A stretch of 37,984 nt of DNA. It comes from Deltaproteobacteria bacterium (GTDB lineage Bacteria; Desulfobacterota; DSM-4660; Desulfatiglandales; HGW-15). Location: NCBI GenBank assembly GCA_016931115.1, contig JAFGFM010000093.1, positions 1 through 37,984 of the forward strand, given 5' to 3'. Of this stretch, positions 2,568 to 22,851 are shown one piece after another. A program made the translations under genes and the position numbers. Numbering within the stretch: the stretch's first letter is position 1; every line of letters begins with the position of its first letter. Under the pieces are notes generated by a model, which saw nothing but the letters and a program-made list of their open reading frames with translations, was not told where the DNA came from and did no database searches.

Positions 2568-4115
2568 CTACTTTTTCTCCTGCTGATCCGCCTTTTTGGG
2601 GCCTTCAGATACCTTCAGGTCGCCCAGGTATTTGGGCAGATCCAGCCCTGCCATCTCTGCTATATCATGGAGCGGGGGGAGGCTCTTTACCATGCCGGAC
2701 AGAAAATTGGCTGTTGTGTTGCCATTTTTACCATCTGAGCCAGAATCCCATACCGTGATCTTGTCTATCTTGAGGTTCCTTATGGCCTCGACCTGCATTG
2801 TAACCATGCTTTCAAGTTTTTCTATCATGAGCAGGGTGGCAGCGGCCTTTGCATCACCTGCGCAGCTTTTAACCAGCTCGGAATAACCCTCAGCCTTGCT
2901 CTCAAGCACCTGCTTAAGACCCTTTGCCTCAGCCTCATATTTTAAGAGTATTGCATCCGCGGTACCCTTTGCCTCTCGTCTTGTCTTTTCCGCCTCTGCC
3001 TCGGCAGCTATCTCGATCTTGCGCTTTTCTATCTCTTTCTGTACGACCTCTGCGGCATTAAGCCTTTCTGCCTCTGCCCTGTACTGGGCCTTCTGTATCT
3101 CCTCCTCTGCCGCACGCTTTGCCACCTCACCACGCATAAAGGCATCTGCCTTTTTTATGGCAAGAAGCGCCTCAGATTCTGCAATATCAGCCTTTGCTGT
3201 ATTTTCTCCTGTTACTGCTGAGGCCTCCTGCTGCTGAATATAAATACGTTTTTCAGCCTCTGCCTTTTTCTTACCCTTTTCAGATCCGGCCACATTTTCA
3301 GCTACCTTTATCTCCTTTTCCCTGTTTGCCTCAGCCTCACCGATTGTTGCATTGGTTTCCTGCTGCTGGACATAAACCCTTCTCTCTGCATCCGCCTTTT
3401 TCTTTCCCTTTTCAGCCTCTGCAATATTTTCGGCTACCCTGATTTCTCTCTCTTTTGTATTTTCAGCCTGCCCTATCTCTCCATGCTTTTCCTGCACCGC
3501 TACGTCGATCTTTGCCTGGTTGATCGCCTCTGCTGCGGCCTTCTTGCCAATGCTTTCTATATAGGTAGACTCATCAGTAATATCAGTAATATTTACGTTG
3601 ATAAGATAGAGCCCGATCTTGTTCAGTTCAGGGGAGACATTCATTCTAATCTCTTCCAGAAACTTTTCCCTGTCCTGGTTGATCTGCTCGATTGTAAGGG
3701 ATGCGACAGTAAGCCTGAGCTGACCAAAGATGATCTCCTTTGCCATCTCTTCTATATCGGTAGGGGGCAGGTTCAGGAGTCTTTCTGCAGCATTATTCAT
3801 TATACCCGGCTCAGTACTTATGCCGACCGTAAATGTGCTCGGCACATTTATCCTGATATTCTGAAAAGAGAGGGCATTCTGCAAGGGAATGCTGATTGTC
3901 ATGGGGGTCAAATCCATGTAGGCATAATCCTGAATAAGTGGCCATACAAGTGTTCCACCTCCATGTATACACTCTGCGGACTGGTTTTCTCCAACCTTTC
4001 CAAAGATAACCAGTATCTTATCAGAGGGGCATCTTTTGTAACGCGATGCAAGAAACATCAGCGTCATAAAAACAAGAATCAAAACAGCAATAATAGCAAG
4101 CATCCACGGTTCCAT
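2568..4115 (-). CDS. Flotillin-like SPFH membrane protein
   Basis: A 515-residue flotillin/YuaG-type scaffold of ordered membrane domains. An N-terminal membrane segment (residues ~5-24, LAIIAVLILVFMTLMFLASR) is followed by an SPFH/band-7 domain to about residue 200. A long Ala/Glu/Lys-rich coiled coil comes next, then a Gly-rich C-terminal part. The coiled coil carries two near-identical units of ~40 residues around GKKKADAERRVYVQQQE and GKKKAEAEKRIYIQQQE, a local duplication. Its start (ATG, AAGGAG RBS) lies 29 nt after the upstream NfeD-like gene. The pairing matches the Bacillus NfeD-flotillin (yuaF-floT) arrangement. It ends at a strong terminator. Confidence 0.92.
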   Translation of the reverse strand: MEPWMLAIIAVLILVFMTLMFLASRYKRCPSDKILVIFGKVGENQSAECIHGGGTLVWPLIQDYAYMDLTPMTISIPLQNALSFQNIRINVPSTFTVGISTEPGIMNNAAERLLNLPPTDIEEMAKEIIFGQLRLTVASLTIEQINQDREKFLEEIRMNVSPELNKIGLYLINVNITDITDESTYIESIGKKAAAEAINQAKIDVAVQEKHGEIGQAENTKEREIRVAENIAEAEKGKKKADAERRVYVQQQETNATIGEAEANREKEIKVAENVAGSEKGKKKAEAEKRIYIQQQEASAVTGENTAKADIAESEALLAIKKADAFMRGEVAKRAAEEEIQKAQYRAEAERLNAAEVVQKEIEKRKIEIAAEAEAEKTRREAKGTADAILLKYEAEAKGLKQVLESKAEGYSELVKSCAGDAKAAATLLMIEKLESMVTMQVEAIRNLKIDKITVWDSGSDGKNGNTTANFLSGMVKSLPPLHDIAEMAGLDLPKYLGDLKVSEGPKKADQQEKK

Positions 4116-4144
4116 AGTTAAATCTCCTTTTCGTTTATCTTAAA

Positions 4145-4726
4145 TTATATTCTTTCAACCACCAGCTGATTTCCATCTACCCATACAACCCTTACAGGTG
4201 TCCCTGTATCAAGGGCTTTGCCATCATTTGAGGTGGCATCATACTCCCTGAGGCTGTTATTTACAGTCACAAGGACCCTGCCTGACCCCTTTTCAGGTAT
4301 ATGCATATAAACCTTACCCTGGGCGCCAACCGTATTATCTATGGGTATTGTACCGCTCGACTTCATTTTACTGGCAAGCATAAATATCTTTCCGATAATC
4401 CAGACCGAGGCACACCCGGCAATAACAGCGCCTATCAGGGACATCATGATCCCCATGCGGCTCTGCCTGTACATTGCCAGACCGACAAGCCCGAACATCA
4501 TTAAAAAGGAGGTGATCCCGTGAAGGGAGAGGACATGAAATCCTAAATCCGAATCGGAATGATGGGTATCTATATTGTGGCTGTCCAGGTTAAGATCGTG
4601 TGTTGAATCGGTATCCATCCCCATAAACTGCATAATAAATTTAACTATGACAAAAAAGCCGCCTACAACCGCACATATAATAAAAAAGATCTCAATGGCG
4701 CTGTAATGAGAAAAGAATGTCCCCAT
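4145..4726 (-). CDS. NfeD-like membrane protein with C-terminal OB fold
   Basis: A 193-residue partner of the flotillin. Three hydrophobic segments (about residues 12-34, 65-86 and 91-116) precede a soluble beta domain of about 70 residues (GAQGKVYMHIPEKGSGRV through the C-terminal LVVERI). This is the layout of the truncated, protease-less NfeD/YuaF type. A His/Asp-rich stretch (residues ~38-60) lies between the first two membrane segments and may bind metal. The RBS AAGGAGG is strong. A decayed copy of this gene's 3' end lies at 14664-14734, beyond the ABC cluster. Confidence 0.85.
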   Translation of the reverse strand: MGTFFSHYSAIEIFFIICAVVGGFFVIVKFIMQFMGMDTDSTHDLNLDSHNIDTHHSDSDLGFHVLSLHGITSFLMMFGLVGLAMYRQSRMGIMMSLIGAVIAGCASVWIIGKIFMLASKMKSSGTIPIDNTVGAQGKVYMHIPEKGSGRVLVTVNNSLREYDATSNDGKALDTGTPVRVVWVDGNQLVVERI

Positions 4727-5541
4727 GCTTATTACCTCCTTATACGTGAATCTGATAAATATTGATGTGTGACCGTTTTAAAAACTACAGCAAACTACAT
4801 AAACAAAAAGATTGTTAATACAGAAAAAACAAAAAACAGATTATGTAAAAAAAGCCCCTCTCAAAAATGGCTCTAATCAAAGCCCAAGATCATCTGAAAG
4901 GGTTAAAACTTTAATGAGAATAATTTGTTGATATAAAAAAGATAACCTTCTATTATTTTTTAAACCTATGGAAATCATAATTCGTTGTCAAGGAATTAGT
5001 TGTAATACCCCTTTTAATCAGCTAAAAACCTGCTTTTGTAAAGCCAAATGGAATATAGAGATCACTCTCTATGTTTATGTTAAAGAATAAAAATAAGGTA
5101 TTTCCAGGCATTATAAGAAAACAACATTACATTATTTACTTTAAAACTTAACTCATATATTAATTGGCATCATTTTTTTTGTTTCATTAAAGATTTGCCA
5201 AAAAATCATTAAAGGATCATTCTCCAGTGGGTAACTATAGCCTCACTGGTCAGATATTTTTGATTAAGGTAAAGGGATGTCGATTTTTGTGGGTTTTATC
5301 AACGGTAGGATTGGAGTTCCAAGTCGATAATTATCAGGAATGATGATGGAGCCGTTATAAAAAAATTTGGGTTTTTTAACTGAACACAGAATATTGCACT
5401 GTTACCTAAAAAGCACTTAACGTTTTCTGTATTCTGTATATTTTATTGATTATATATAGCTTGCTGCTTTAACAGATAAGATATACCCGTTAAGGTCTAT
5501 TGAAGTATATTAAATTATCATTTTTAAAAAGGGGATAACAC
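4727..5541. other. 815-bp AT-rich intergenic region between divergent operons
   Basis: No plausible protein gene or RNA gene was found. The region must hold the promoters for nfeD-flotillin (-) and for the SBP-OmpA/TelA cluster (+), but I see no sigma-70 site strong enough to call. Visible elements are the 20-bp repeat at 4984-5003, the small palindrome atagaga-tcac-tctctat (5055-5072), and an imperfect hairpin built on ccagtg/cactgg near 5226-5251. The size and AT content are consistent with a regulated, possibly silenced upstream region. Confidence 0.5.
4984..5003. repeat. Left copy of 20-bp direct repeat bracketing the cluster
   Basis: gttgtcaaggaattagttgt is found exactly again at 14732-14751 in the same orientation, 9.7 kb away on the other side of the eight-gene cluster. 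Flanking bases differ at both ends, so the perfect match is 20 bp. Such a match is not expected by chance in a window this size. Confidence 0.85.
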
Positions 5542-7263
5542 ATGAAAAGAAAATTGATACTTTTAATCTTAATAACTGCCTTATTTAGCCTTACATCAGG
5601 ATTTTCATACTCCATACAATACATAGATGCGCCTCCCTTAAAAGGCGTTATCAATGTCCCAATAGGCAATGTTAAAATCGGTGAGTATACGCGTATCCCT
5701 CTTATTACCTGGGGCGGTGATCAAGCAACAATTCTTGGTAATGGCAACGCAAGAGAAACAGCAGCAAAAAGCATTTTTTCCCAGGAGGGTCTGAGACTTA
5801 AACTCCATCGCGAAGATGATTTTAAAAAACAGGTTGAGTCATATATGCGTGGAGACACCCCCTATCTTCGCGGGACCTATGGGATGATAAATATGGCATC
5901 TGAAGTTTTATCCGAGGACCCCAGGACCAGACCGATAATAGTATATCAACTGACATGGTCAAATGGCGGGGATTGTCTTGTAGTCAAGCCAGGGATACAG
6001 ACAACCAAGGACCTGAAAGGAAAAACAATTGCGGTACAGGCCTATGGGCCCCATGTCTATTATCTTTCAAAAATACTTACCGATGCGAACCTGTCAATTA
6101 ATGATGTTACAATCAAATGGGTAAGAGATTTGACCGGCACCGACAACACACCTATGGAAGCATTTTACGAATCAGATATCGACGCTGCGATGATGATAAT
6201 CCCTGACGGATTAATCCTGACATCTAACGGGACTGTAGGAAATGAATCGGAGGGCTCTGTTAAAGGTGCAAAAATATTACTCTCCACAAAAACTGCCAAC
6301 AGGATAATCAGTGATGTTTATGCAGTGCGAGCTGATTATATGGAATCTAATTCAAGTGAAGTAACAAATTTTGTTCATGGTCTTATGATGGCTGAAGAGG
6401 AATTGCGCGAGATTTATAAAAATAAGGAATCACAGATAGGTAATTTTACAAAAATGATAAAGGCTTCTGCGGAAATCCTTTTGGACAGCCCCGAGGCAGT
6501 AGCGGATGCGGAGGCATTATATACAGACTGCGAATACGTAGGGTTTAGCGGAAACATCAAGTTTTTTATGGATCCTAATTACCCTAGAAACATGGATAAT
6601 CTCACAGCTCAGATTCAAAGCGCATTTATAAAAATTGGGCTGATATCAAAGAAGGTATCAATAAATAAAGCGAATCTCGATTTTAAAAACCTTCAAGTTG
6701 GGCTTAAAAACACTTCTGGTTTAGAAGTCCCAAGATTCGATCCTACTCAGGTAGCTGCCGTTGTCCAGCAAAAACAAAGACAGGACTCTCTCCGGGAAGG
6801 CGAGCTGTTTTCCTTTGAGGTATATTTTCAGCCTAACCAAAATAATTTTTCTGCGGACATGTATTCTGATGACTTTATCAGGGTTATTAATCTGGCATCT
6901 ACATACGGAGGAGCTATCATTACTATTGAAGGGCATTCAGATCCTCTTGGATATTTGAAGTCAAAAAAGAGTGGGGAGACAGAGATTGTCCTAAAAAATA
7001 TTATACAATCAGCTAAAAATCTCAGCCTTTCAAGGGCAAACAGCGTCAAGAGCAGTGTAATCGAATTTGCTAAAAGTAAAGGAATAATACTTGATGACAC
7101 ACAATTTGCTGTTGTTGGACATGGAATAATGAAACCCCAGAACGGTATGTGCGGATCGGATCCATGTGCGCCTGTAACAGAGCAGGAATGGAGAAATAAT
7201 ATGAGAGTTGAATTCAGAATTATTCAGGTTGAAGCGGAAAGCTCTGTTTTCAAACCATTATAA
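5542..7263 (+). CDS. Solute-binding/OmpA fusion protein 1
   Basis: A 573-residue exported protein and first gene of the cluster. It has a signal peptide (residues 1-~22) and a type-2 periplasmic solute-binding domain of NitT/TauT or phosphonate style (about 45-380; note DLKGKTIAVQAYGPHVYYLSKIL). A C-terminal OmpA-like peptidoglycan-binding domain follows (about 425-565). In that domain GHSDPLG holds the diaminopimelate-contacting Asp, and LSLSRANSV holds the Arg. They are 31 residues apart instead of the usual 15, a 16-residue insertion. The product is probably periplasmic and bound to the cell wall. RBS AGGGG precedes ATG 5542. The ligand is unknown. Confidence 0.8.
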   Translation: MKRKLILLILITALFSLTSGFSYSIQYIDAPPLKGVINVPIGNVKIGEYTRIPLITWGGDQATILGNGNARETAAKSIFSQEGLRLKLHREDDFKKQVESYMRGDTPYLRGTYGMINMASEVLSEDPRTRPIIVYQLTWSNGGDCLVVKPGIQTTKDLKGKTIAVQAYGPHVYYLSKILTDANLSINDVTIKWVRDLTGTDNTPMEAFYESDIDAAMMIIPDGLILTSNGTVGNESEGSVKGAKILLSTKTANRIISDVYAVRADYMESNSSEVTNFVHGLMMAEEELREIYKNKESQIGNFTKMIKASAEILLDSPEAVADAEALYTDCEYVGFSGNIKFFMDPNYPRNMDNLTAQIQSAFIKIGLISKKVSINKANLDFKNLQVGLKNTSGLEVPRFDPTQVAAVVQQKQRQDSLREGELFSFEVYFQPNQNNFSADMYSDDFIRVINLASTYGGAIITIEGHSDPLGYLKSKKSGETEIVLKNIIQSAKNLSLSRANSVKSSVIEFAKSKGIILDDTQFAVVGHGIMKPQNGMCGSDPCAPVTEQEWRNNMRVEFRIIQVEAESSVFKPL

Positions 7264-7283
7264 GCAGAAGGGGAGATAATACG

Positions 7284-8054
7284 ATGAAAAGAGTTAAATA
7301 TATTCTATGTTTAACAGCTCTATGTATATTGCTTCAGGGTTGCGATAGTCAATCTCCACAACAGGGACAAACGCAACAGAAAATGCAATTTGATAAACCT
7401 GCTCAGCATTCTGTAAAAAGAGATATCCCTTGGCCGCCTGAAGTTAAAGATCTGGATATTGAACTGACAAAAAACCTATTGGCAAAAAATTATTATGTTA
7501 TACTTGATGGCAGCGGGTCTATGCGGGATTCAGGTTGTTCCGGAAACAGGGAAAAATTTGCTGTTGCTAAAGAGGCATTAACTCAGTTTGCCAATATTGT
7601 CCCTCCTGATGCAAATCTTGGTCTTCTTATTTTTTATGATGGTCAGATTCAGGAAAAGGTTGCTTTAGCTACGGGTAACAGAGAGGAATTTATATCAGCA
7701 GTAAATTCAAGCAATGCCAATGGAGGCACACCCCTTTATTCTGCTATTAAAAAAGGATACCAGACCATTGAAAGGCAGGCACAGAGCCAGCTCGGATATG
7801 GAGAATATATCCTTGTTACCGTAACAGATGGTGAAGCAGGTCCCGGGGAAGATCCCAAAAAGATAGTAAATTGGATACTGGATAATTCGCCTGTTCAGAT
7901 TCATACAATAGGTTTTTGTATTGGCGAAAATCATTCACTAAATATCCCCGGGCAAACTGTATACAAACCGGCCGATAGCCCTGATCAGTTGCAAAAAGGA
8001 TTACAGGATGTTTTAGCCGAGGCAGAGCAGTTTGAAATAATGGAATTTAAATAA
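7284..8054 (+). CDS. VWA-domain lipoprotein
   Basis: 256 residues. A lipoprotein signal peptide ends in the lipobox LLQGC (Cys ~20), so the protein should be membrane-anchored on the periplasmic face. A von Willebrand A domain spans about residues 65-240 with a complete MIDAS metal site: DGSGSM, the Thr in GGTPLYSA and the Asp in TVTDGEAG. Metal-dependent binding of a partner protein is therefore likely. It starts 20 nt after the first SBP-OmpA gene, within the same operon. A likely role is to bridge the SBP-OmpA proteins to the membrane components; the partner is not evident from sequence. Confidence 0.85.
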   Translation: MKRVKYILCLTALCILLQGCDSQSPQQGQTQQKMQFDKPAQHSVKRDIPWPPEVKDLDIELTKNLLAKNYYVILDGSGSMRDSGCSGNREKFAVAKEALTQFANIVPPDANLGLLIFYDGQIQEKVALATGNREEFISAVNSSNANGGTPLYSAIKKGYQTIERQAQSQLGYGEYILVTVTDGEAGPGEDPKKIVNWILDNSPVQIHTIGFCIGENHSLNIPGQTVYKPADSPDQLQKGLQDVLAEAEQFEIMEFK

Positions 8055-8092
8055 AATTATTTTGGTTTTGTAAACAATGGAGGAGGGCGGAT

Positions 8093-9661
8093 TTGAATAA
8101 AAAAATCTTTGGCGCTATCCTGCTGTTTATCATCTTACTGGCTGCAATTCTTCTTCTATGGTTATTATTGCCCAGATTTATGGACAGGCAGCAAAAAATC
8201 ACGAGCGATGCTACAAAAACCAGGGGAAAGATTCGAATAGCAATGGATAACTGGATCGGTTATTTCCCTCTCAGGTCCAATGAGATGAAAAATGCCATGA
8301 GAAGGATGGGATGGATTCTGAGTTGCGAAGATGATAATGCCGATTATGAAGGCCGAATGATGAGGCTTAAAGATGGAGACATAGACTTTGCTGTTGCGAC
8401 TGTGGACTCTTTTATCCTGAATGCACATCAGCATGGCTTTCCCGGGACGATTATAGCGGTTATAGATGAATCAAAAGGAGGTGATGCCATCCTGGCCCTG
8501 AAAAATAAAATAGATAGCCTTGATGCACTTAAGGGCAGGTCAGATGTCAGGATAGCCTTCACACCAAACAGCCCAAGCCATCATCTTGCAAAGGCAGCAG
8601 CAGACCATTTTAATATCCCCGAACTCCTTCCCTCCGGCTCGATGTATGAGGAGACCGAAGGATCGGAGAAGGCCAGGGAGAAACTTTTATCCGGAAAAGC
8701 GGATGTGGCTATTTTATGGGAACCGGACGTGTCACGCGCCCTTGACCATAAAGATATCATAAAACTTCTTGGAACAGAGGATACCGAAAAACTGATTGTA
8801 GACATCCTGATTGTCAGGAGACAATTTTCTCAAAAAAATCCTGAGGTCATTAACCAGCTTCTGGATAATTATTTTAGAGTGCTGAAAAAATATCGTGATA
8901 GCCCTGGTTTGCTTGTCAGCCACGTAAAAGAAGAAACCGGGCTTTCTGAAGATAAAATTGAATCTATGCTGAAGGGTGTTGAATGGGCCAGTTTCGGTGA
9001 TAACTGTGACAAATGGTTCGGGATAGCAGCCCCGGGGAGTTATGCCTCTGAAGGTATTATTGACACAATTCAGTCAACAATAAATATCCTAATTAATTCA
9101 AATGATTTTAAAACCAGCCCGATACCTGATGAAGATCCTTACCGCCTTACAAACAGCGCACATCTTGAATACCTTTTTTCAAAAGGCATCTCCGGATTTT
9201 CTTCACCAAAGCAGGCAAGTAACACTGCGGAGCCGATTAGTTCAATTGAAACAAAGTTTTCACAATTAACTGAAAAAGAGTGGAACGCCCTTAAGGAAGT
9301 AGGAACCCTGAAAGTTGATCCAATTGTATTTCAACACGGAACAAATGAACTCAGTATGCTTGCAAAAAAAGTTGTCGACCAGGCGGTTGAAAGGCTCAAG
9401 CACTATCCCAATTTTCGGGTTACTATCAAGGGGCATACAGGAATAAGAGGAGACCAGAAAGAAAATTTACGTCTTTCCCAGGAGCGCGCTGAGGCAGTAG
9501 CGCGATATCTGAATGTAGTATACAACATTGACCCAAACAGGCTATTTTCTATTGGTTTTGCTGGTAAGGAACCTTTGCCCCTAATACAGGGGGAATCAAA
9601 GAGGTCGTATGAATATAGACTCCCAAGAGTGGAGCTTGTACTTGTGCGAGAGGATTACTAA
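8093..9661 (+). CDS. Solute-binding/OmpA fusion protein 2
   Basis: 522 residues. An uncleaved-looking membrane anchor (residues ~5-28) is followed by an NMT1/TauT-like solute-binding domain (about 45-330; KIRIAMDNWIGYFPL, KADVAILWEPDVSRAL). A C-terminal OmpA-like domain occupies about 390-520. The start is TTG 8093 with GGAGGAGGG just upstream; no ATG fits. In the OmpA motif GHTGIRG and LSQERAEAV keep the canonical 15-residue spacing. The diaminopimelate-binding Asp is replaced by Gly, while the Arg is kept, so peptidoglycan binding may be weak or altered. It is similar in layout to the first fusion protein but diverged in sequence, so it is not a recent duplicate. Confidence 0.8.
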   Translation: MNKKIFGAILLFIILLAAILLLWLLLPRFMDRQQKITSDATKTRGKIRIAMDNWIGYFPLRSNEMKNAMRRMGWILSCEDDNADYEGRMMRLKDGDIDFAVATVDSFILNAHQHGFPGTIIAVIDESKGGDAILALKNKIDSLDALKGRSDVRIAFTPNSPSHHLAKAAADHFNIPELLPSGSMYEETEGSEKAREKLLSGKADVAILWEPDVSRALDHKDIIKLLGTEDTEKLIVDILIVRRQFSQKNPEVINQLLDNYFRVLKKYRDSPGLLVSHVKEETGLSEDKIESMLKGVEWASFGDNCDKWFGIAAPGSYASEGIIDTIQSTINILINSNDFKTSPIPDEDPYRLTNSAHLEYLFSKGISGFSSPKQASNTAEPISSIETKFSQLTEKEWNALKEVGTLKVDPIVFQHGTNELSMLAKKVVDQAVERLKHYPNFRVTIKGHTGIRGDQKENLRLSQERAEAVARYLNVVYNIDPNRLFSIGFAGKEPLPLIQGESKRSYEYRLPRVELVLVREDY

Positions 9662-9682
9662 TCATGAGAGGATTATCTTAAC

Positions 9683-10528
9683 ATGTATGAAAAATATAGT
9701 GTGCCACGGTTAAGCGACTTCTCAAACAAGGCCATGAAAAAAGTTGTTCGAAGGACAGGATTGACACACTGGCTAACCATATATCCTCCGGCGATAGGGG
9801 TCCCCTGTGGTATTGCAGGACTGCTTTTTAATTTACCATTTCTTTACCTTGTTCCGCTTGGAGCATGTTTTCTCTCAATGATGAATATCGTTATTAACAT
9901 CTTTTTCAAGAGTGATCAGATTTCAAGCAACTATATTAATGAATTAAACAAAAAGCTCAAAAGACATGAAGAAATAATCAAACAATCTCTGCATGATAAC
10001 CTGTTAAAATGCATGGATATAAAAGGCTCTGAACAATATGCGATACAGGGGACTGAACAATTTAAAAGAATTCAGCAAAAATACCAGAATGTAAATGAGT
10101 TGCTTAAAAAGAAACTTGATAGCGGAGAATTGACATTTGGTAGGTTTATAGGGGCTGCAGAGCAGGTTTACCTGAGTACTCTGGATAATTTGAAACAGGT
10201 GGTAAATATTTTACAAAGCGCTGGAAGTATTGATCCTGAGTATATAAACAACCGGATAAAAAAACTGAGTGTGAATCATAAAAATTCGACTTCAGAAAGA
10301 AAGGAACTGGATGCCCTCAATAAAAGACTTGAGTTAAGAGATGAACAATTCCAAAAAGTAGAAACATACCTTTCAAACAATGAAGAGGCTATGACAAGGA
10401 TGGAAGAGACTACCGCTGCCATTGCCATGATGAGAACAGAAGGAAACCTTGCTGCAACAGATTTTGAAACCGCTATAAAGCAATTACATGAACTGGCGCA
10501 ACGTGCCCAAATTTATAACAACAATTAA
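9683..10528 (+). CDS. Membrane coiled-coil protein, XpaC-like by position
   Basis: 281 residues. Two closely spaced hydrophobic helices (about 32-52 and 54-75) are followed by ~200 charged, helix-rich residues predicted to form coiled coils in the cytoplasm. The gene stands immediately before telA (5 nt gap). This repeats the order xpaC-yaaN of Bacillus subtilis, where a two-helix membrane protein precedes a TelA homologue. Sequence similarity to XpaC cannot be judged by eye, so the name is by analogy. It probably anchors or docks the TelA protein at the membrane. Confidence 0.6.
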   Translation: MYEKYSVPRLSDFSNKAMKKVVRRTGLTHWLTIYPPAIGVPCGIAGLLFNLPFLYLVPLGACFLSMMNIVINIFFKSDQISSNYINELNKKLKRHEEIIKQSLHDNLLKCMDIKGSEQYAIQGTEQFKRIQQKYQNVNELLKKKLDSGELTFGRFIGAAEQVYLSTLDNLKQVVNILQSAGSIDPEYINNRIKKLSVNHKNSTSERKELDALNKRLELRDEQFQKVETYLSNNEEAMTRMEETTAAIAMMRTEGNLAATDFETAIKQLHELAQRAQIYNNN

Positions 10529-10539
10529 GGAGGATGAAT

Positions 10540-11772
10540 ATGGTAACAATGACTCAACAACAGAACGAGAAAGGGCTTATTATATCGGATTCAAAGAAAG
10601 TACAACAGGAACTGGGGCTTGTGGACCCTAAAAGCTTGACCCTTGATAAAAAACCAGATCCTGTATTGGAAAAATTAGCGGATGACTTTATTAAAAAGAT
10701 AATGGAATGCAACCCTGATGATCCGGCTCAGGCAGATCTGAAACTCCAGAATATGGCTGCGGTAGAGAATCTTGGAGCACAGACACAGAAAGAGGCATCA
10801 ATAAGAAGTGGCATGCTTAAAGAACCTATCAGAAAGCTTGCGGCAAAAGGAGAGGATGGCGGAGATGTGGCGAATGCCCTGGTTGATCTCAATATGAAAG
10901 TCGAAGACCTTGATCCCGCAGGGTTTAATTTTGAACCCGGCTGGTTTGCCCGCACTTTAGGTTTTATTCCGGGTTTTGGTAAACCCCTTAAACGATATTT
11001 TATTAAATTTGAATCATCTCAGACTATTCTGGACGCTATTTTTCGTTCACTGGAGCAGGGGGCTGAAATGTTGCAAAGGGATAATCTGACCCTTTCGGAA
11101 GATCAAAAAAATATGAGGATGCTCACACTGAGGCTTCAGCAAACTATTCAACTGGGCATGCTTCTCGATAAAAAACTCAGTAACCTTGTTGAGCGTGAAG
11201 TACTGGGAGAAGATCCGCGCCGTAAATTCGTTCAGGATGAAATCCTTTTCCCTGTAAGACAGCGAATAATGGATCTTCAACAACAACTTGCAGTTAACCA
11301 ACAGGGAGTCCTCTCGATTGAGATAATCATTCGAAACAATAAAGAGCTTATCAGAGGTGTTAACAGGGCAATCAATGTAACTATAAATGCACTAAATGTT
11401 GCCGTAATAGTTGCTTTAGCCCTGGCCAATCAAAAAATTGTGCTGGATAAAATTAATATGATCAACAAGACCACAGACAAGCTTATTGGCGACACAGCAC
11501 GTAAACTAAAAACTCAAGGAGCTGCCATCCATAAGGATGCTGCTACCAGTAAACTCGATATTAACACACTGAAACAGGCATTTTCAGATATCAAAGCCGC
11601 AATGGATGATATCTCCAAGTTCCGCCAGGAGGCATTACCTCAGATGGCAAATACAATTCTTGAGATGGATAAACTCACTTTATCTGCTGAAGATGCTATC
11701 AGGAAAATGGAACAGGGCAATCATGTGGCGCCAATGGTCACTCTGGATGTTGGTGAGTTTGGGAGTATGTAA
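10540..11772 (+). CDS. TelA-family (toxic anion resistance) protein
   Basis: 410 residues, cytoplasmic and mostly helical. TelA-family hallmarks are present: the GFIPGFGKPLKRYFIKFESS segment (about residues 144-163), a long helical region, and the hydrophobic stretch INVTINALNVAVIVALALAN near residues 283-302. ATG 10540 is chosen because AAGGAGG then has ideal spacing; ATG 10534 abuts the RBS. Family members are linked to tellurite, bacteriocin or envelope stress tolerance, with unknown mechanism. In this cluster it is best seen as the cytoplasmic partner of the preceding membrane protein. Confidence 0.82.
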   Translation: MVTMTQQQNEKGLIISDSKKVQQELGLVDPKSLTLDKKPDPVLEKLADDFIKKIMECNPDDPAQADLKLQNMAAVENLGAQTQKEASIRSGMLKEPIRKLAAKGEDGGDVANALVDLNMKVEDLDPAGFNFEPGWFARTLGFIPGFGKPLKRYFIKFESSQTILDAIFRSLEQGAEMLQRDNLTLSEDQKNMRMLTLRLQQTIQLGMLLDKKLSNLVEREVLGEDPRRKFVQDEILFPVRQRIMDLQQQLAVNQQGVLSIEIIIRNNKELIRGVNRAINVTINALNVAVIVALALANQKIVLDKINMINKTTDKLIGDTARKLKTQGAAIHKDAATSKLDINTLKQAFSDIKAAMDDISKFRQEALPQMANTILEMDKLTLSAEDAIRKMEQGNHVAPMVTLDVGEFGSM

Positions 11773-11814
11773 CATTCAAATGTTTGTAATTATATAATAC
11801 GAAGGAGATGAACT

Positions 11815-12879
11815 ATGAAAAAATCAGGTTGGGTACTTTCTATAGCATTTTTGTTTGTTATTAGCCTTAATCTTTCCACCTTTGCAGGTGAGAGTTATAA
11901 GATAGCATGGTCCCATTATACGGGCTGGGAACCCTGGGGCTATATTCAAGAATCCGGAATTATGGATAAATGGGCAAAAAAATATGAGATTGACAGCATA
12001 GAGATTCGACTGATTAATGACTATGTTGAAAGCATTAATATGTATACAGCAGGGCAGTTTGATGGCTGTGTTATGACTAACATGGACGCCCTTACGATAC
12101 CCGCTGTCGGCGGTATTGACTCAACTGTTCTCATTGTCGGCGATTTTTCAAATGGAAATGATGGAATAGTCCTGAAAAACGGTCAGAAGATCAAAGATCT
12201 GAAAGGAAGAAAGGTCAGGATTGTCGAGTTATCAGTTTCCCATTATCTTTTAAGCAGGGCCTTGGACATGAATGGCATGACTGAACGTGACATGACACTT
12301 GTCAACACAAGTGACGCCGATATTGCAAGCCTTTTTATAGCAGAGTCAGAAAAAGACCCGAAAGCTGCTGTTTGCACCTGGAATCCTCCTCTTATGCAAG
12401 TGAGAAACGTCAATGGCGCAACCCTAGTATTTGATTCATCTACAATTCCAGGTGAAATAATTGATTGTCTAGTTGTCCGAACAGATGCTCCTGAAAATCT
12501 CAAAAAGGCACTGACTGGTGCCTGGTATGAGGCTATGCGAATCATGTCAAGTCGCACCAAAGAAGGCAAAGAAGCTATACAAATCATGGCAAAAATAGCT
12601 GGAGGCACCGAGGCTGAATTCAAGGCGCAACTTAAAACAACCTTTATGTATTATCAACCTTCAGCTGCTACAGAATTTACAAAAAGTCCAAAGTTGAAAG
12701 AAACTATGGAATATGTAAGGACATTCAGTTTTGATCATGGCCTGTATGGTGATGGCGCTCCTGATAAAAACCTGGTCGGCATCATATTCCCGGATGGTTC
12801 TATCCTGGGAGATAATAAAAATATTAAATTACGTTTTGACGCAAAATACATGCAGATGGCAGCAGATAATAAACTTTAG
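11815..12879 (+). CDS. ABC transporter solute-binding protein, urea-carboxylase-associated (UctT) type
   Basis: 354 residues with a cleavable signal peptide (cleavage near TFA-G, residue ~24). The mature protein is a NitT/TauT-like periplasmic binding protein. Segments such as YTGWEPWGYI, NDYVESINMYTAGQFDG, MTNMDALTIPAVGG and ELSVSHYLLSRAL resemble the solute-binding proteins found beside urea carboxylase operons. No urea carboxylase, allophanate hydrolase or guanidine gene is present, so the substrate could be urea, guanidine or another small nitrogen compound. RBS GAAGGAG precedes ATG 11815. Unlike the two fusion proteins it has no OmpA domain and is the conventional binding protein for the permease and ATPase that follow. 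Confidence 0.8.
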   Translation: MKKSGWVLSIAFLFVISLNLSTFAGESYKIAWSHYTGWEPWGYIQESGIMDKWAKKYEIDSIEIRLINDYVESINMYTAGQFDGCVMTNMDALTIPAVGGIDSTVLIVGDFSNGNDGIVLKNGQKIKDLKGRKVRIVELSVSHYLLSRALDMNGMTERDMTLVNTSDADIASLFIAESEKDPKAAVCTWNPPLMQVRNVNGATLVFDSSTIPGEIIDCLVVRTDAPENLKKALTGAWYEAMRIMSSRTKEGKEAIQIMAKIAGGTEAEFKAQLKTTFMYYQPSAATEFTKSPKLKETMEYVRTFSFDHGLYGDGAPDKNLVGIIFPDGSILGDNKNIKLRFDAKYMQMAADNKL

Positions 12880-12925
12880 AGATTTGATATCAGCTACATT
12901 TAAATTCTGGTGAGGTATAGAAAAT

Positions 12926-13759
12926 ATGAATAGAATGCCGCAGTTTTGGGGTATACATGCAGCGCCTTCTCCTGTTCTGAACTGGTTACTTTTTTTGTTG
13001 CCATTTATAATTGTTATTGCTGTTTACATAATCGCTTCAGATTACAGGCATAGCAAAAATCCTTCGGATAAGCTGCTGCCCCCCGTCTCCAAGATGTATG
13101 AGTCCATGAAGAGTGCTGCTTTTGAGAAGCATAAAAGAACAGGTGAATATCAACTGTGGACGGATACTGGGGCAAGCCTTAAACGTATCGGCATTGGATT
13201 AGGTGCCTCAGCTATATGCGGATTATTGATGGGGTTACACCTTGGATTATTACCGGGGATTCGCAGTTTTCTTTTACCATTCATTACTTTTGTATCGATA
13301 ATTCCTCCGCTGGCTGTCCTTCCGATACTATTCATTGTTTTTGGTGTTGATGAGCTGGCTAAAGTCATGTTGATTTTCCTCGGTACATTTCCTGTCATTG
13401 CGCGTGACATATACCTCACTGTAAAAAAGACCCCAAATGAGCAGATTGTCAAAGCCCTCACCTTGGGAGCCTCACAATTCGATGTCATCTATCGAGTTAT
13501 TGCTCCCCAGATAATACCCAGACTTATTGATACAGTCCGGATAAATATGGGGCCTGCATGGCTATTTTTAATTGCATCTGAGGCTATCGCAGCAACATCA
13601 GGGCTGGGCTATCGCATTTTTCTTGTCCGAAGGTATCTGGCGATGGATACAATTATACCTTATGTTTTATGGATAGTCTTGATAGGTTTAACCATAGACG
13701 GGCTAATGAAAAAAATCATCCAGATGAAATACTCCTGGTACCTTGTTTCACAGGATTAA
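12926..13759 (+). CDS. ABC transporter permease, NitT/TauT family
   Basis: 277 residues with about six membrane helices. The EAA loop is readable near residues 173-195 (ALTLGASQFDVIYRVIAPQ), where the permease contacts the ATPase. An extra hydrophilic segment (residues ~40-70) follows the first helix. The gene lies 46 nt after the binding protein and 11 nt before the ATPase start at 13771. The three form one importer that should move the bound solute across the inner membrane. Confidence 0.9.
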   Translation: MNRMPQFWGIHAAPSPVLNWLLFLLPFIIVIAVYIIASDYRHSKNPSDKLLPPVSKMYESMKSAAFEKHKRTGEYQLWTDTGASLKRIGIGLGASAICGLLMGLHLGLLPGIRSFLLPFITFVSIIPPLAVLPILFIVFGVDELAKVMLIFLGTFPVIARDIYLTVKKTPNEQIVKALTLGASQFDVIYRVIAPQIIPRLIDTVRINMGPAWLFLIASEAIAATSGLGYRIFLVRRYLAMDTIIPYVLWIVLIGLTIDGLMKKIIQMKYSWYLVSQD

Positions 13760-13770
13760 AGGAGCTAAAA

Positions 13771-14670
13771 ATGAATAATTTAAAAAATACCAGCATTCTT
13801 TATCTGGAAGATGTTTTTAAACTTTACGGGACAAAAGTTATACTTGATGATATTGATCTGGCAGTAGGGGAGAAAGAGATAGTTACTGTTGTTGGACCAA
13901 GCGGGTGCGGCAAGTCAACCCTGCTGCGCCTTATTCTCGGACAGGAGGCGCCTACCTCTGGCACACTTTTATTAAATGGAAAGCCAATTGGGCTCCCTGA
14001 TTCAACAAGGGGAATAGTATATCAAAAGTACTCGCTTTTCCCCAATAGAACTGTGCTTGGCAATGTACTGGAAGGATCGCGGCTTAGCTTAGGATTTTAT
14101 GAAAGACATCACAGGAAAAAAGAATTAATTGATGAGGCAATTCATTATATTGAAAAAGTGAAGCTGGAAAAACACATGCATAAATATCCTCATGAATTGT
14201 CAGGAGGAATGCGTCAAAGGGTCGCGATTGCCCAGTCGCTTATCATGAAGCCAAAGTTTCTATTAATGGATGAACCTTTTGGTGCGCTTGACCCCGGAAC
14301 TAGAGAGAGCATGCAGATTTTTTTATTGGAAGTGTGGGAAGAATATGGCATGAATATTTTTTTTGTTACCCATGATCTTGAGGAAGCCGTGTTTGTCGGC
14401 ACCAGAATACTTGTCCTGTCGCAATACTATACAGATGACCGGGGAAATGGTGGGGATATAAACCGTGGTTCAAAAATAGTATGTGACTATTGCTTACCTG
14501 CTATGGCCACCTCTACGAAGGTCAAAGAAACAGCAGAATTTGGAGAACTTATCCAGCAGATCAGGCATGAAGGATTTGATCCTGAATATACACAGCATGC
14601 TAAAAATTTTAATCTTAAACATCCGCATTCTTTCCAAACATTAGGAGAAGAAATATGTCAACCCCAATAA
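13771..14670 (+). CDS. ABC transporter ATP-binding protein, NitT/TauT family
   Basis: 299 residues. Walker A is GPSGCGKST (from residue ~43), the signature is LSGGMRQRV (143-151), Walker B is FLLMDEP with Asp167/Glu168, and the switch histidine is in THDLEEA. ATG 13771 is preceded by AAAGGAG; a longer frame from 13669 would overlap the permease and is not supported. A C-terminal extension of ~60 residues after the core could be regulatory. The stop codon (14668-14670) falls inside sequence that resembles the 3' end of nfeD in antisense, so the last few residues may derive from the rearrangement junction. Confidence 0.92.
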   Translation: MNNLKNTSILYLEDVFKLYGTKVILDDIDLAVGEKEIVTVVGPSGCGKSTLLRLILGQEAPTSGTLLLNGKPIGLPDSTRGIVYQKYSLFPNRTVLGNVLEGSRLSLGFYERHHRKKELIDEAIHYIEKVKLEKHMHKYPHELSGGMRQRVAIAQSLIMKPKFLLMDEPFGALDPGTRESMQIFLLEVWEEYGMNIFFVTHDLEEAVFVGTRILVLSQYYTDDRGNGGDINRGSKIVCDYCLPAMATSTKVKETAEFGELIQQIRHEGFDPEYTQHAKNFNLKHPHSFQTLGEEICQPQ

Positions 14671-14734
14671 CCCTAATAGGTGTACCTGTATCAATGATTT
14701 TTCTGTCGTTTGAGGTGGTATTATCTTCACTGTT
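14664..14734 (-). pseudogene. Relic of an nfeD 3' end
   Basis: Translated on the minus strand, this stretch reads TTSNDRKIIDTGTPIRVIGVD. Intact NfeD near its C-terminus reads ATSNDGKALDTGTPVRVVWVD. About 14 of 21 positions are identical, and DNA similarity continues on both sides. There is no start codon and the rest of the gene is missing; the relic runs straight into the 20-bp repeat at 14732. It overlaps the last bases of the ABC ATPase gene on the opposite strand. Confidence 0.7.
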
Positions 14735-14751
14735 GTCAAGGAATTAGTTGT
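14732..14751. repeat. Right copy of 20-bp direct repeat bracketing the cluster
   Basis: This is an exact copy of 4984-5003. Here it directly adjoins the nfeD relic, whereas the left copy lies 257 bp upstream of the intact nfeD start. This is consistent with a second nfeD unit that lost everything between its 3' end and the repeat. Confidence 0.85.
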
Positions 14752-14797
14752 TTACAACCATTTTTCATCATTTGCTTACATCATTAAAAGGGTTTTT

Positions 14798-16159
14798 ATG
14801 GAAAAGAGAGACGGGAACATACTGGAACAGATGAGATCAGATGCCTTAAAATGCTTTAAGGCTGCAATTGATAGCGTTAATCCCTATGATGCTGTAAAGA
14901 GGGCGCTGACCCTTTCGGGGAATATCATTACTGTTGCTGCTGGCGGGGAAAGATACGATTTTGACCTTGAAAAATTTGACAGGATATTTCTTGTAGGAGG
15001 GGGAAAGGCTGGGGCCCCTATGGCGGCTGCCCTGGAAGATACTCTTGGCAACAGGATTACAGAGGGGTTGATTGTTGTTAAATATGGATTCACCAGGAAT
15101 CTGTTATACACCGAGATTATAGAGGCAGGGCACCCTGTGCCCGATGAAAAGGGCAGGGCAGGGGCAAAAAGGATAATGGATATCCTCAAGAAGGCGGGGG
15201 AGAGGGATCTGGTTTTTTCCATTATTTCAGGAGGGGGCTCTGCCCTTTTGCCTCTTCCAGTGGAAGGCATATCCTTTGAACATAAACAGAAGATCACTCA
15301 GATGCTGCTGGATTGCGGGGCAGGTATTGATGAGATAAACTGCATAAGAAAGCATATATCTGCAACCAAGGGCGGCCAGATGGCAAGGGCCGCCTTTCCT
15401 GCCACTACCATTAACCTCATGCTTTCGGATGTTGTTGGGGATAAAATGGATGTAATAGCATCAGGCCCCTTTGTCCCGGATAACAGCAGCTTCAAAGATG
15501 CCTGGGATATTGTGACAAAATACAGGCTTAATGATCTTATCCCTCATCCCATCAGGGATCACCTGAAGGCGGGGGTGGATAAAAAAATAGAGGAAACGCC
15601 GAAACATGGTGACGAGATATTTACAAGGGTCTTTAACCTTATTATTGGCAGTAACATGATCGCGCTTGAGGCGGCGGAAAAAGAGGCCCGGAGGCTTGGA
15701 TATAGCACCCTTATCCTCTCCTCCATGATCGAGGGCGAAACAAGGGATATTGCGAATGTGCACACAGCAATAGCCCGTGAGGTCATAAAGAGCGGCAAGC
15801 CCATTGCACCTCCATGCTCTATTATTTCAGGGGGTGAGACAACTGTGACAATCAGAGGGAATGGAAAGGGGGGTAGAAACCAGGAGTTCTGCCTCGCCGC
15901 TGCAATGGATATCCATGACATGCCTGAAAGGGTTGTTATTTTAAGCGGTGGAACAGATGGCAATGACGGCCCTACGAATGCAGCAGGGGCAATAGTCGAC
16001 CCCTTTACCATAAAGAGAGGAGATACAGCAGGGATAAGTGCTTCAGGACATCTTGCAAATAATGATTCATATCATTATCTGGAAAAGACAGGGGATCTGC
16101 TCATTACAGGGCCAACCAATACAAATGTGATGGATGTGAGGGTCATGCTTGTCAGATAA
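14798..16159 (+). CDS. Glycerate 2-kinase (GckA/MOFRL family)
   Basis: 453 residues, normal for the family. It phosphorylates D-glycerate with ATP to 2-phosphoglycerate, feeding lower glycolysis. An N-terminal Rossmann-like domain carries VGGGKAGAPMAAALED and FSIISGGGSALLPLP. A C-terminal MOFRL domain carries SGGETTVTIRGNGKGGRNQE and SGGTDGNDGPTNAAGAIVD. Only a weak RBS precedes ATG 14798. It converges on the GT81-like glycosyltransferase gene, whose family uses glycerate or phosphoglycerate as acceptor, so a shared metabolite is possible. Hydroxypyruvate reductase/kinase names used in databases for this family refer to the same fold. Confidence 0.9.
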   Translation: MEKRDGNILEQMRSDALKCFKAAIDSVNPYDAVKRALTLSGNIITVAAGGERYDFDLEKFDRIFLVGGGKAGAPMAAALEDTLGNRITEGLIVVKYGFTRNLLYTEIIEAGHPVPDEKGRAGAKRIMDILKKAGERDLVFSIISGGGSALLPLPVEGISFEHKQKITQMLLDCGAGIDEINCIRKHISATKGGQMARAAFPATTINLMLSDVVGDKMDVIASGPFVPDNSSFKDAWDIVTKYRLNDLIPHPIRDHLKAGVDKKIEETPKHGDEIFTRVFNLIIGSNMIALEAAEKEARRLGYSTLILSSMIEGETRDIANVHTAIAREVIKSGKPIAPPCSIISGGETTVTIRGNGKGGRNQEFCLAAAMDIHDMPERVVILSGGTDGNDGPTNAAGAIVDPFTIKRGDTAGISASGHLANNDSYHYLEKTGDLLITGPTNTNVMDVRVMLVR

Positions 16160-16210
16160 GGAAATGAGCCATCTTTCTTGTGGATGGGGATGATGACAGG
16201 GATTACCAAA

Positions 16211-16366
16211 GGGCGCAAGGCGCAGGGGGCAGGGCACAGGGTTAAAGATTCAAGATTCAAGATTAAGGTCCAATGTTCCAGGTTTAAGGGAACAGGTTAA
16301 CAAGTTAACAGGTTAAGGCTTTTTAATTAAATCTTCACCCTGCACCTTGTGCCCTGTGCCTTTATT
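16211..16366. repeat. Intergenic repeat in inverted halves with terminator-like end
   Basis: Left half (16211-16241) has units gggcgcaagg, cgcaggggg and agggcacaggg. Right half (16337-16360) carries the same unit family in inverted orientation. Nine bases, ggcacaggg (16233-16241) and ccctgtgcc (16352-16360), are perfectly complementary, and TTTATTTT follows. The middle holds short tandem repeats (ttcaaga; ggttaacaagttaacagg). Lying between two convergent genes, it may serve as a terminator for the glycerate kinase. Confidence 0.5.
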
Positions 16367-17579
16367 TTCTCTTCCCCCACTTCCTTACGAGATAGGGTTT
16401 TACAGATTCAAAGACCATGCACTCCTCCTCTATGGCTGCCTCTGTCTGATGTGTGGTCATCTTTTCGGTCTTCCTGATAAAGGATAATGTCTTGCCAAAG
16501 TATAGGGGAACAAGGGCATCCATCAATCTATCAGGATTATCCGCATCCCTGTATTCAACAGCCCAGTCATACAGGACCCTTGCCCATAGCTCTACCGGGA
16601 AGGTAAAATCACCTGTGGTCATTCCCTTTATTTCATAAAGCTTCCCAAAGATATCCGGTGAGAGTGTCTTTTTCCATACCTCATCATATTCCCTGAACCC
16701 GTCATGAAAACAGTTCAGCAGGCTTACCGGGTCTATCTCCACCTTTGGAGGAAACTCTGTTTCCCATGAACCAAAACCGTTTATGGCAGTGGGTTTACTG
16801 TTTTTCACCCTGCGCCAGTTATGATCCAGCCTCTTCATAAGAGAAAAGATTGTCCCAACCTCCTGCCTGAACATCGGGTAAACGGTTGCAAACAGCTCCC
16901 TGTTTCTGTGCTCCTTGGGTCTGCCTATAAAAGACTGGCATAGCCTGACCTGCTGATTCATGGCAATGGTGCTCATCCAGATGTCAATACCAAAACTCAT
17001 AACCGCATCATTCCGTATTTCAGTTTCAAGGTATCTCCTGGTCAGCTCTCCGCTGAATCCAAAATCCCCTCCAATGGGCTGGCGCACCCTTCTTCCATAC
17101 AGCGCCCTTGAAAGGGGATATGCAATGCTGTTTGTTATGGTGCCGTCATATTTGTGTCTTACATACAGAGGTGTGACAAAAGAAAAACCTTTAAACAGGG
17201 GCTCTCCCATGCATTTGATCCATTCAGGTGTTATGCTTTTAAGGTCTGCATCCACCACCAGCACTGCCTCTGCCCCAAGCTCCTTAACCTTCCTGAAAAG
17301 GTTAATAAAATTGTTTCCTTTGCCCTTAACCCCGGGGGGAGTGGAGATATATATCTTCGGTACATCAGTAGGGGTCGCAAGGAATGCCTTTTTTGTATTG
17401 TCAGGGGAATTATTATCACAGTTGATAATGACCGCCTGTTTTTCAGGAAAATACCTCTTTATCCCGAGGCTTATCTGAATGGTAGGATAGGCAATGGTAT
17501 CTGCCTCATTGCAGGAGGGGATACCCACAACAAGGTCTGCCCTCCCTATTTTTCCCGGGTTGACCTCCTTTTCAAACAT
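16362..17579 (-). CDS. GT81-like glycosyltransferase (GpgS/mannosylglycerate-synthase style)
   Basis: 405 residues with a GT-A fold. An N-terminal VVGIPSCNEADTI is followed by the metal motif DADL (residues ~116-119). The block RQPIGGDFGFSGEL comes next, then SFGIDIW and EHRNR. These line up in order with QPLGGE, GYGVEIG and AHRNR of glucosyl-3-phosphoglycerate synthases, including the metal-binding His. A retaining transfer from a nucleotide sugar to glycerate, phosphoglycerate or a similar acceptor is therefore likely. The C-terminal ~150 residues are extra and unassigned. The gene lies 22 nt after ruvB and may be its operon's last member. A generic family 2 transferase is the alternative. 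Confidence 0.65.
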   Translation of the reverse strand: MFEKEVNPGKIGRADLVVGIPSCNEADTIAYPTIQISLGIKRYFPEKQAVIINCDNNSPDNTKKAFLATPTDVPKIYISTPPGVKGKGNNFINLFRKVKELGAEAVLVVDADLKSITPEWIKCMGEPLFKGFSFVTPLYVRHKYDGTITNSIAYPLSRALYGRRVRQPIGGDFGFSGELTRRYLETEIRNDAVMSFGIDIWMSTIAMNQQVRLCQSFIGRPKEHRNRELFATVYPMFRQEVGTIFSLMKRLDHNWRRVKNSKPTAINGFGSWETEFPPKVEIDPVSLLNCFHDGFREYDEVWKKTLSPDIFGKLYEIKGMTTGDFTFPVELWARVLYDWAVEYRDADNPDRLMDALVPLYFGKTLSFIRKTEKMTTHQTEAAIEEECMVFESVKPYLVRKWGKRK

Positions 17580-21882: not shown

Positions 21883-22221
21883 ATGCAGATATTACCTGAA
21901 AATAAAAAAACAATTCCAATCCAAATCTTTAATCTATTCTGGGAGTATGCCCCCGAATCTATCGATATTGATGCCCACCGGGATCTAATAATAGCCAGAA
22001 TTACTGAGAGGGGATCGTGGGATTCCATGAAATGGCTCCTCCAAACATATTCAAAGGAACAGATACTATCCTTTCTCAACAAAAAAGGAATACAGACACT
22101 TCCTCTTCGGGAACTTAATTACTGGTTATTAATGATGGGGATATCATCAGAGGAAAGAGATCAGATCATTAATAAAACAAGCGAGTCGAACCATGTCTGG
22201 AACAACCGATATTCATACTGA
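21883..22221 (+). CDS. Putative AbiE-type antitoxin partner
   Basis: 112 residues. Features are NLFWEYAPESIDIDAHRDLI and a helical middle (DSMKWLLQTYSKEQILSFL), resembling small DUF6922-like proteins that stand before AbiEii genes. Its 3' end overlaps the nucleotidyltransferase gene by 29 nt, the usual arrangement for a coupled antitoxin-toxin pair. There is no classical helix-turn-helix that I can see, so DNA-binding autoregulation is uncertain. Confidence 0.6.
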   Translation: MQILPENKKTIPIQIFNLFWEYAPESIDIDAHRDLIIARITERGSWDSMKWLLQTYSKEQILSFLNKKGIQTLPLRELNYWLLMMGISSEERDQIINKTSESNHVWNNRYSY

Positions 22222-22837
22222 GATATTAAATGATGCCCAGGTGAACCTGCTACATCATTTATCAGAAGCATTTATGAATTCTGACTATTATCTTGCCGGA
22301 GGCACTGCACTTGCACTAAAACTGGGGCATCGGCTTTCAAAAGACTTTGACTGGTTTATTAACAGGCTCGGTGACCCGGAAGACCTTTTTAGAAGGTTGA
22401 GATCGACTAATGTGTCATTTACCGTGCTTTCGACTGCCTGTGAGACAGTATACCTGAATATAGATTCAGTACAGGTGAGTTTTATCGGCTATGATTATCC
22501 TTTGCTGGATTCTCCTGGGATAGCATCTGCAAAATACCCATTCCGGATCGCCGGGTATGACGATATTGCCTGTATGAAGCTTTCAGCAATCGCCTCAAGG
22601 GGATCAAGAAAAGACTTTGTGGATCTTTATTTTTTAATAAAAAATTTTAAACCTCTTAACGCATATCTGGAGCTTTTCATCAAAAAATACAAAAACAGGG
22701 ATATCGGCCATGTAATAAGGAGCCTGGCCTATTTCAAGGATGCAGAAGCGGAACCGGAACTAAATATTATTGCGCCATTTGACTGGGGAAAAATGAAGGT
22801 TGATTTTGAAGGCTGGGTAAAAAGTATTAGTTGCTAA
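22193..22837 (+). CDS. AbiEii/AbiGii-family nucleotidyltransferase (toxin-like)
   Basis: 214 residues. The nucleotidyltransferase core motif is LAGGTALALKLGHRLSKDFDWF (from residue ~34), with the Gly-Gly and the Asp-x-Asp-like KDFDWF. The family block DDIACMKLSAIASRGSRKDF and VDLYFL follows. AbiEii proteins are toxins of type IV-like abortive infection systems that use GTP or CTP to modify RNA targets; many short homologues are uncharacterised. With the overlapping upstream gene it forms a likely toxin-antitoxin or phage-defence pair. The protein is shorter than classical AbiEii (about 300 residues). Confidence 0.8.
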   Translation: MSGTTDIHTEILNDAQVNLLHHLSEAFMNSDYYLAGGTALALKLGHRLSKDFDWFINRLGDPEDLFRRLRSTNVSFTVLSTACETVYLNIDSVQVSFIGYDYPLLDSPGIASAKYPFRIAGYDDIACMKLSAIASRGSRKDFVDLYFLIKNFKPLNAYLELFIKKYKNRDIGHVIRSLAYFKDAEAEPELNIIAPFDWGKMKVDFEGWVKSISC

Positions 22838-22851
22838 GGAGGTCTGCCACC

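Follow-up and report, generated by a model that had tools for sequence, protein, structure and literature searches.

The biochemical function of TelA, a common protein family, has yet to be settled. In the xpaC-yaaN (TelA) pair of Bacillus and in related TelA/XpaC operons, a membrane coiled-coil protein is followed by TelA. The same succession occurs within an eight-gene cluster at positions 5542 to 14670 of the window analyzed here, a 37,984-nucleotide stretch of DNA from a Deltaproteobacteria bacterium, but its membrane coiled-coil protein is not detectably XpaC, and periplasmic and transport parts are added. The cluster resembles the Ter (tellurite/phage-stress) systems in containing both TelA and a VWA-domain protein; however, this VWA protein is a predicted lipoprotein, and TerB, TerC and TerD found no match in the cluster, nor did TerC/TerD-type partners among the scanned neighbors. 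Genes 6 to 8 match the TIGR03427 "putative urea"/TauBC-type importers of the ATP-binding cassette (ABC) family, but they are accompanied by two tethered, homologous solute-binding proteins (SBPs). In addition, an Rfam scan of positions 4000 to 17000 returned no match, including no ykkC-type riboswitch, and a ykkC/guanidine link was rejected on this ground.

A further comparison is offered by a single sentence of Ravi et al. (2024, mSystems; PMC11237479), which links PspA and Snf7-TM genes with AAA, ABC and PBPB-OmpA genes; the main text of that paper does not mention tellurite, VWA or SBP. Like the window cluster, these operons join an ABC permease, an ATPase and a binding-domain-OmpA protein to a cytoplasmic membrane-remodeling protein, and they are most likely a TelA-less, AAA-bearing variant of it. 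The window differs in having TelA in the corresponding slot, with no PspA or AAA gene in the block, and in combining a free TIGR03427 SBP and a VWA lipoprotein with a pair of SBP-OmpA proteins that differ in their anchoring. No description of the TelA version was found in the open literature searched. Consistent with an earlier reading of the sequence alone, which knew of no assigned function for the whole set, none was found in the literature that could be searched.

The cluster is real, conserved and mobile, and one variant of it has already been touched on in that one sentence. The open reading frame (ORF) list and translation confirmed all eight plus-strand ORFs across the span, and profile scans with Pfam and NCBIfam, on which all family calls for window proteins were based, agreed with the parts list of the sequence-only reading. 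The proteins encoded by genes 1 to 8 are 573, 256, 522, 281, 412, 354, 277 and about 299 amino acids long, and the intergenic gaps are 5 to 46 bp. The order is SBP-OmpA1, VWA, SBP-OmpA2, membrane coiled-coil protein, TelA, SBP, permease and ATPase. The features are as follows:

4984..5003, no strand: left copy of a 20-bp perfect direct repeat, GTTGTCAAGGAATTAGTTGT, flanking the apparently inserted block
5542..7263, + strand: gene 1, exported NMT1/SsuA-type SBP fused to an OmpA-like domain, Asp467/Arg498 kept
7284..8054, + strand: gene 2, VWA lipoprotein, lipobox LQGC, intact metal ion-dependent adhesion site (MIDAS)
8093..9661, + strand: gene 3, N-terminal membrane anchor, SsuA-type SBP and OmpA-like domain, Gly450 at the canonical Asp
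9683..10528, + strand: gene 4, coiled-coil protein with a membrane anchor, resembling XpaC in position only
10534..11772, + strand: gene 5, TelA (PF05816)
11815..12879, + strand: gene 6, free periplasmic binding protein (TIGR03427, 494 bits)
12926..13759, + strand: gene 7, TauC-like ABC permease
13771..14670, + strand: gene 8, TauB-like ABC ATPase; the ORF opens at 13669, and the Met at 13771 is the likely start
14732..14751, no strand: right-hand counterpart of the 20-bp repeat

When GTDB representative genomes were searched with a gene 1 profile, 48 loci were recovered. Gene maps showed the same order in dozens of loci from Desulfobacterota, Spirochaetota, Nitrospinota, Gammaproteobacteria, Acidobacteriota, KSB1, Aminicenantes and Poribacteria, with gene 1 about 40 to 74% identical to that of the window. 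The order was also seen in a Cyclobacteriaceae bin (Bacteroidota) and two archaeal bins, which may be misassigned. All eight genes are present on Vibrio megaplasmids (gene 1 identity about 41%), where the ATPase is relocated to the front. As read from the gene maps, gene 1 is followed by VWA wherever the contig extends far enough, and importer genes (SBP and/or permease) are adjacent in about 28 of the 34 loci that offer enough room; two Spirochaetes have them in divergent orientation. Pairwise gene distances were correlated, with a Mantel r of 0.74 to 0.89 for the pairs tested, to which shared organism history also contributes. The sequence-only reading had named in advance unlinked genes or an unconserved order as the outcome that would speak against it; when this linkage test was run, conserved order was found across phyla. 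The eight genes therefore form one conserved envelope-spanning unit, with TelA in a fixed slot after the membrane coiled-coil protein.

The cluster is absent from a sister species (RuvB 98.6% identical). In the sister genome NfeD directly adjoins glycerate kinase, and window positions 5002 to 14731, a 9.7-kb block, are missing while both flanks align. The empty site holds a single copy of the repeat, matching at 17 of 18 positions; shuffled controls contained no repeat longer than 14, compared with 20 bp at the window block. The 9.7-kb block seems to have come into the genome as a whole. Gain is the simpler explanation, given that the block is missing beside glycerate kinase in further members of the family; the alternative is loss by the sister through repeat recombination. 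No recombinase gene lies inside the block. Of 395 genomes sampled from the phylum, 2 had gene 1 at full strength, and of 85 from the order, 1 had TelA. Repeats above the shuffled maximum also flank other clusters of the family, at 9057 and 20404 of locus L058 (42 bp) and at 9856 and 19141 of L083 (18 bp).

Gene 1 has a hydrophobic, signal-like N-terminus, an NMT1/SsuA-type SBP match, a weak OmpA match (Omp38, 3.5e-4) and a GHSD...NLSLSR motif. Peptidoglycan binding of the OmpA type was judged by the presence of the conserved Asp and Arg through which OmpA domains contact diaminopimelate. In gene 1, Asp467 is kept in 51 of 55 homologues and Arg498 in 53 of 55. Gene 3 combines an SsuA-type SBP match with a stronger OmpA match (8.7e-14) and starts with a membrane anchor that 48 of 49 homologues share. 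Its Arg465 is invariant (44 of 44), but the canonical Asp position (GHTD) is Gly in the window and Gly, Ala or Ser in 38 of 44 homologues, with Asp in 3 of 44, so that the full Asp and Arg pair is absent. Because of this difference in Asp/Arg conservation, peptidoglycan binding is a safe prediction for gene 1, whereas canonical binding by gene 3 is doubtful; the sequence-only reading, which had both proteins bind peptidoglycan, holds for the former and is doubtful for the latter. A Zorya assignment was rejected, since the ZorB profile covers only about 30 residues of the gene 3 OmpA domain and no ZorA was found among the scanned proteins.

Gene 6 matched TIGR03427 with 494.4 bits against an NCBI cut-off of 333.9. 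The binding domains of genes 1, 3 and 6 are mutually homologous (hhalign, 99%), and each conserves its own set of residues, which fits different ligands or different roles. In the Pfam and NCBIfam scans gene 7 was a TauC-like permease and gene 8 a TauB-like ATPase; among NCBIfam models the two are closest to taurine systems, while TIGR03427 is named for urea. These matches agree with the full TauT/UctT-type importer with its own SBP that was first proposed from the sequence.

Gene 2 has the lipobox LQGC and all MIDAS residues (D75, S77, S79, T149 and D182; DxSxS...T...D), which 53 or more of 55 homologues conserve, in agreement with its description as a MIDAS-intact VWA lipoprotein. Gene 5 matched the TelA profile PF05816 with 236 bits (gathering cut-off, 30) over positions 6 to 330 of 332, and its TelA-family assignment was upheld over the full length. 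A fold search with a low-confidence TelA model gave no informative match, and a search of solved structures found no TelA relative. The window gene 4 protein did not match XpaC (PF10112) in the profile scan, and profile-profile comparison gave a probability of 13.5%, which leaves this relationship unsupported. The slot 4 homologue of an archaeal bin (L088) does match PF10112. The proposed xpaC-yaaN analogy is thus supported by the succession of membrane coiled coil and TelA, by this archaeal locus and by the parallel operon described below, but not by the gene 4 sequence of the window.

About two dozen loci have TelA after gene 4, among them L054 and L088, whose divergent TelA copies were detected by Pfam only. 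In Acidobacteriota, Aminicenantes, Poribacteria, KSB1 and the 595-kb huge phage LR756511, the slot is occupied by an all-helical protein of about 276 residues that is not TelA, and loci with this replacement often have a classic AAA gene after the ATPase. Sulfidibacter likewise has the replacement protein and no TelA. The top VIA-align row for the predicted hairpin of the replacement protein was Escherichia coli PspA 1-144 (Z 13.1, 122 residues, 2.2 Å); Vipp1 and Snf7 stood lower in that list, and Vipp1 was the first Foldseek row. Helical hairpins are a weak structural test, as many unrelated folds match at such Z. The replacement protein did not match the PspA profile PF04012, and hhalign against PspA gave a probability of 0.8%. 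Profile comparison gave no support for sequence homology with PspA, TelA or gene 4. The genome of the window encodes PspA elsewhere. The exchange of TelA and a PspA-like protein in one slot predicts a PspA/ESCRT-III-like job for TelA.

When the phylum was surveyed for TelA (6 of 297 genomes), a second operon architecture containing it was revealed. This parallel operon encodes a fusion of SBP_bac_11 with VWA, XpaC proper (PF10112) or a similar membrane protein, an SBP-like protein of about 362 amino acids anchored in the membrane, and TelA, with no recognized permease or ATPase alongside. It was present in L118 (4757-9282), L121 (3849-8539) and L036 (6719-11435) and, without adjacent TelA, in L119 (5669-9175); a matching set is carried by a Sphaerotilus plasmid. 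Therefore, the combination of binding domain, VWA, membrane coiled coil and TelA recurs in a second architecture.

Reduced forms were found in viruses. A membrane-anchored SBP-OmpA protein lies beside a permease and an ATPase, with neither a free SBP nor TelA, in phage G, in Lak phages and in other IMG/VR contigs (L039, L040, L127, L128 and L129). A terminase match backs the phage nature of three records; the 359-kb IMG/VR contig L089, which has a fuller cluster, gave no terminase match. Since the viral trios have no free SBP, SBP-OmpA may act as the importer's own binding protein, and these trios provide the best evidence suggesting that SBP-OmpA works with the transporter. The sequence-only reading had supposed that, of the three binding domains, one would transport and two would sense; the trios point instead to a possible transport role for SBP-OmpA. 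The viral combination is possibly a phage-encoded, self-tethered importer.

Collectively, we favor an importer with tethered binding proteins that is coupled to a TelA (or PspA-like) sub-membrane scaffold, to which we assign a probability of about 0.42. Genes 6 to 8 would import a small solute, probably nitrogen- or sulfur-containing. Gene 1, on the peptidoglycan, and gene 3, in the inner membrane with its OmpA-like domain towards the wall, may serve as additional tethered binding proteins that capture the solute and pass it to the permease, and the MIDAS VWA lipoprotein could be a metal-dependent adaptor joining the periplasmic parts. On the cytoplasmic side, the gene 4 coiled coil and TelA would form a sub-membrane scaffold coupling transporter activity to the state of the membrane. 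TelA may be the receiver of a signal, as the sequence-only reading suggested; some members have another protein in its place or lack it. Several observations weigh against such a coupled importer. Loci L062, L063 and L086 contain genes 1 to 5 without neighboring ABC genes, so the importer is partly separable, and the ATPase evolves out of step, with a distance correlation of just 0.34. The predicted TelA fold is of low confidence, with a predicted local distance difference test (pLDDT) score of 63. Further, two assemblies, G385 and a Desulfomonile bin (L048), have neither TelA nor its replacement beside gene 4 and no TelA genome-wide, with the rest of the cluster present.

The same loci lacking ABC genes would fit the chief competing explanation, a machine devoted mainly to envelope integrity, in which TelA, or a PspA/ESCRT-III-like protein with AAA, remodels or props the inner membrane, the SBPs and VWA sense wall or solute, and transport is secondary. 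This explanation shares the conserved unit with the tethered importer and differs from it on the output, membrane repair as opposed to transport. It is consistent with the filling of the TelA slot elsewhere by a helical protein with PspA/Vipp1/Snf7 structural matches and AAA genes nearby, with the gene linkage reported by Ravi et al., and with the parallel operon, which has SBP and VWA and no importer alongside. However, the promiscuous hairpin matches and the hhalign value for PspA argue against it, as do the viral trios, which retain the importer and drop all else; we consider it possible, though somewhat doubtful. A mobile fitness or conflict cassette on plasmids, phages and islands, conferring superinfection exclusion or xenobiotic/anion tolerance with TelA as a Ter-type effector, would explain the patchy distribution, the presence or absence of the block between direct repeats, and its carriage by Vibrio megaplasmids and the 595-kb phage; a jumbo-phage review (PMC7824862) has proposed a part for Ter/TelA in phage conflict. 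There was, however, no match to TerD or TerC, a PADLOC scan gave no convincing match to a defense system, and the block has no toxin-, nuclease- or recombinase-like gene, and we regard such a cassette as unlikely. Finally, genes 6 to 8 alone resemble a TIGR03427/TauBC importer, as would be expected of an ordinary taurine/urea-type ABC importer lying by chance beside unrelated envelope genes. Because of the cross-phylum order, the correlated divergence and the precise absence of the block in the sister species, the cluster is beyond chance, and this explanation is very improbable.

The tethered importer may, tentatively, be viewed as a representative of an undescribed, horizontally moving class, in which peptidoglycan- and membrane-anchored SBPs are physically coupled via VWA and a coiled coil to a TelA or ESCRT-III-like scaffold, TelA stands in for PspA-type remodeling, and the phage trio is the minimal form. 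If true, this would be, to our knowledge, a new importer design, with binding proteins fixed to the wall instead of diffusing, and a reduced form of it would apparently be carried by very large phages. A conserved unit with named periplasmic partners makes the role of TelA testable.

The contig of the window (C134) belongs to a 5.18-Mb, 240-contig assembly, and the wider neighborhood of the cluster is chromosomal, with EF-P, RuvAB and MnmG genes. The left neighbors are flotillin-NfeD genes and the right neighbor is glycerate kinase. Comparison with the sister species identified flotillin-NfeD as an old neighbor of the insertion site; it was rejected as a component and considered incidental because no homologue lies near any other cluster. 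Scans for sigma-70 promoters and terminators gave no excess over shuffles. Elsewhere in the window, an AbiEii-type nucleotidyltransferase gene adjoins a tannase-family gene (22193-23919).

AAA and radical-SAM-like accessory genes were rejected as core components, since neither adjoins the window cluster. A conserved 340-amino-acid protein with a radical-SAM-like cysteine motif (CxxxxCxGC) is linked to the cluster at 19182-20201 of L041 and in eight other loci (alignment A4), and the genome of the window gave no radical-SAM match. On another contig, this genome does encode an AAA protein related over its full length to that of L041: the AAA ATPase at 299-2286 of L095 (contig C163) shares 43% identity with the ATPase upstream of the L041 cluster, and a small protein beside it may be related to DUF1257/Ycf35. 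In the Vibrio megaplasmids (L033 and L034), the cluster is close to an RctB-type replication initiator gene and has an extra upstream gene of about 200 amino acids (A5), which is present in Alteromonadales loci too. A contig labeled Parcubacteria (L042), probably misbinned, has a cluster with gene 1 62% identical to that of the window. Acanthopleuribacter pedis has two cluster copies on different scaffolds (L077 and L081) with 39-bp flanking repeats, reflecting either duplication or an assembly artifact.

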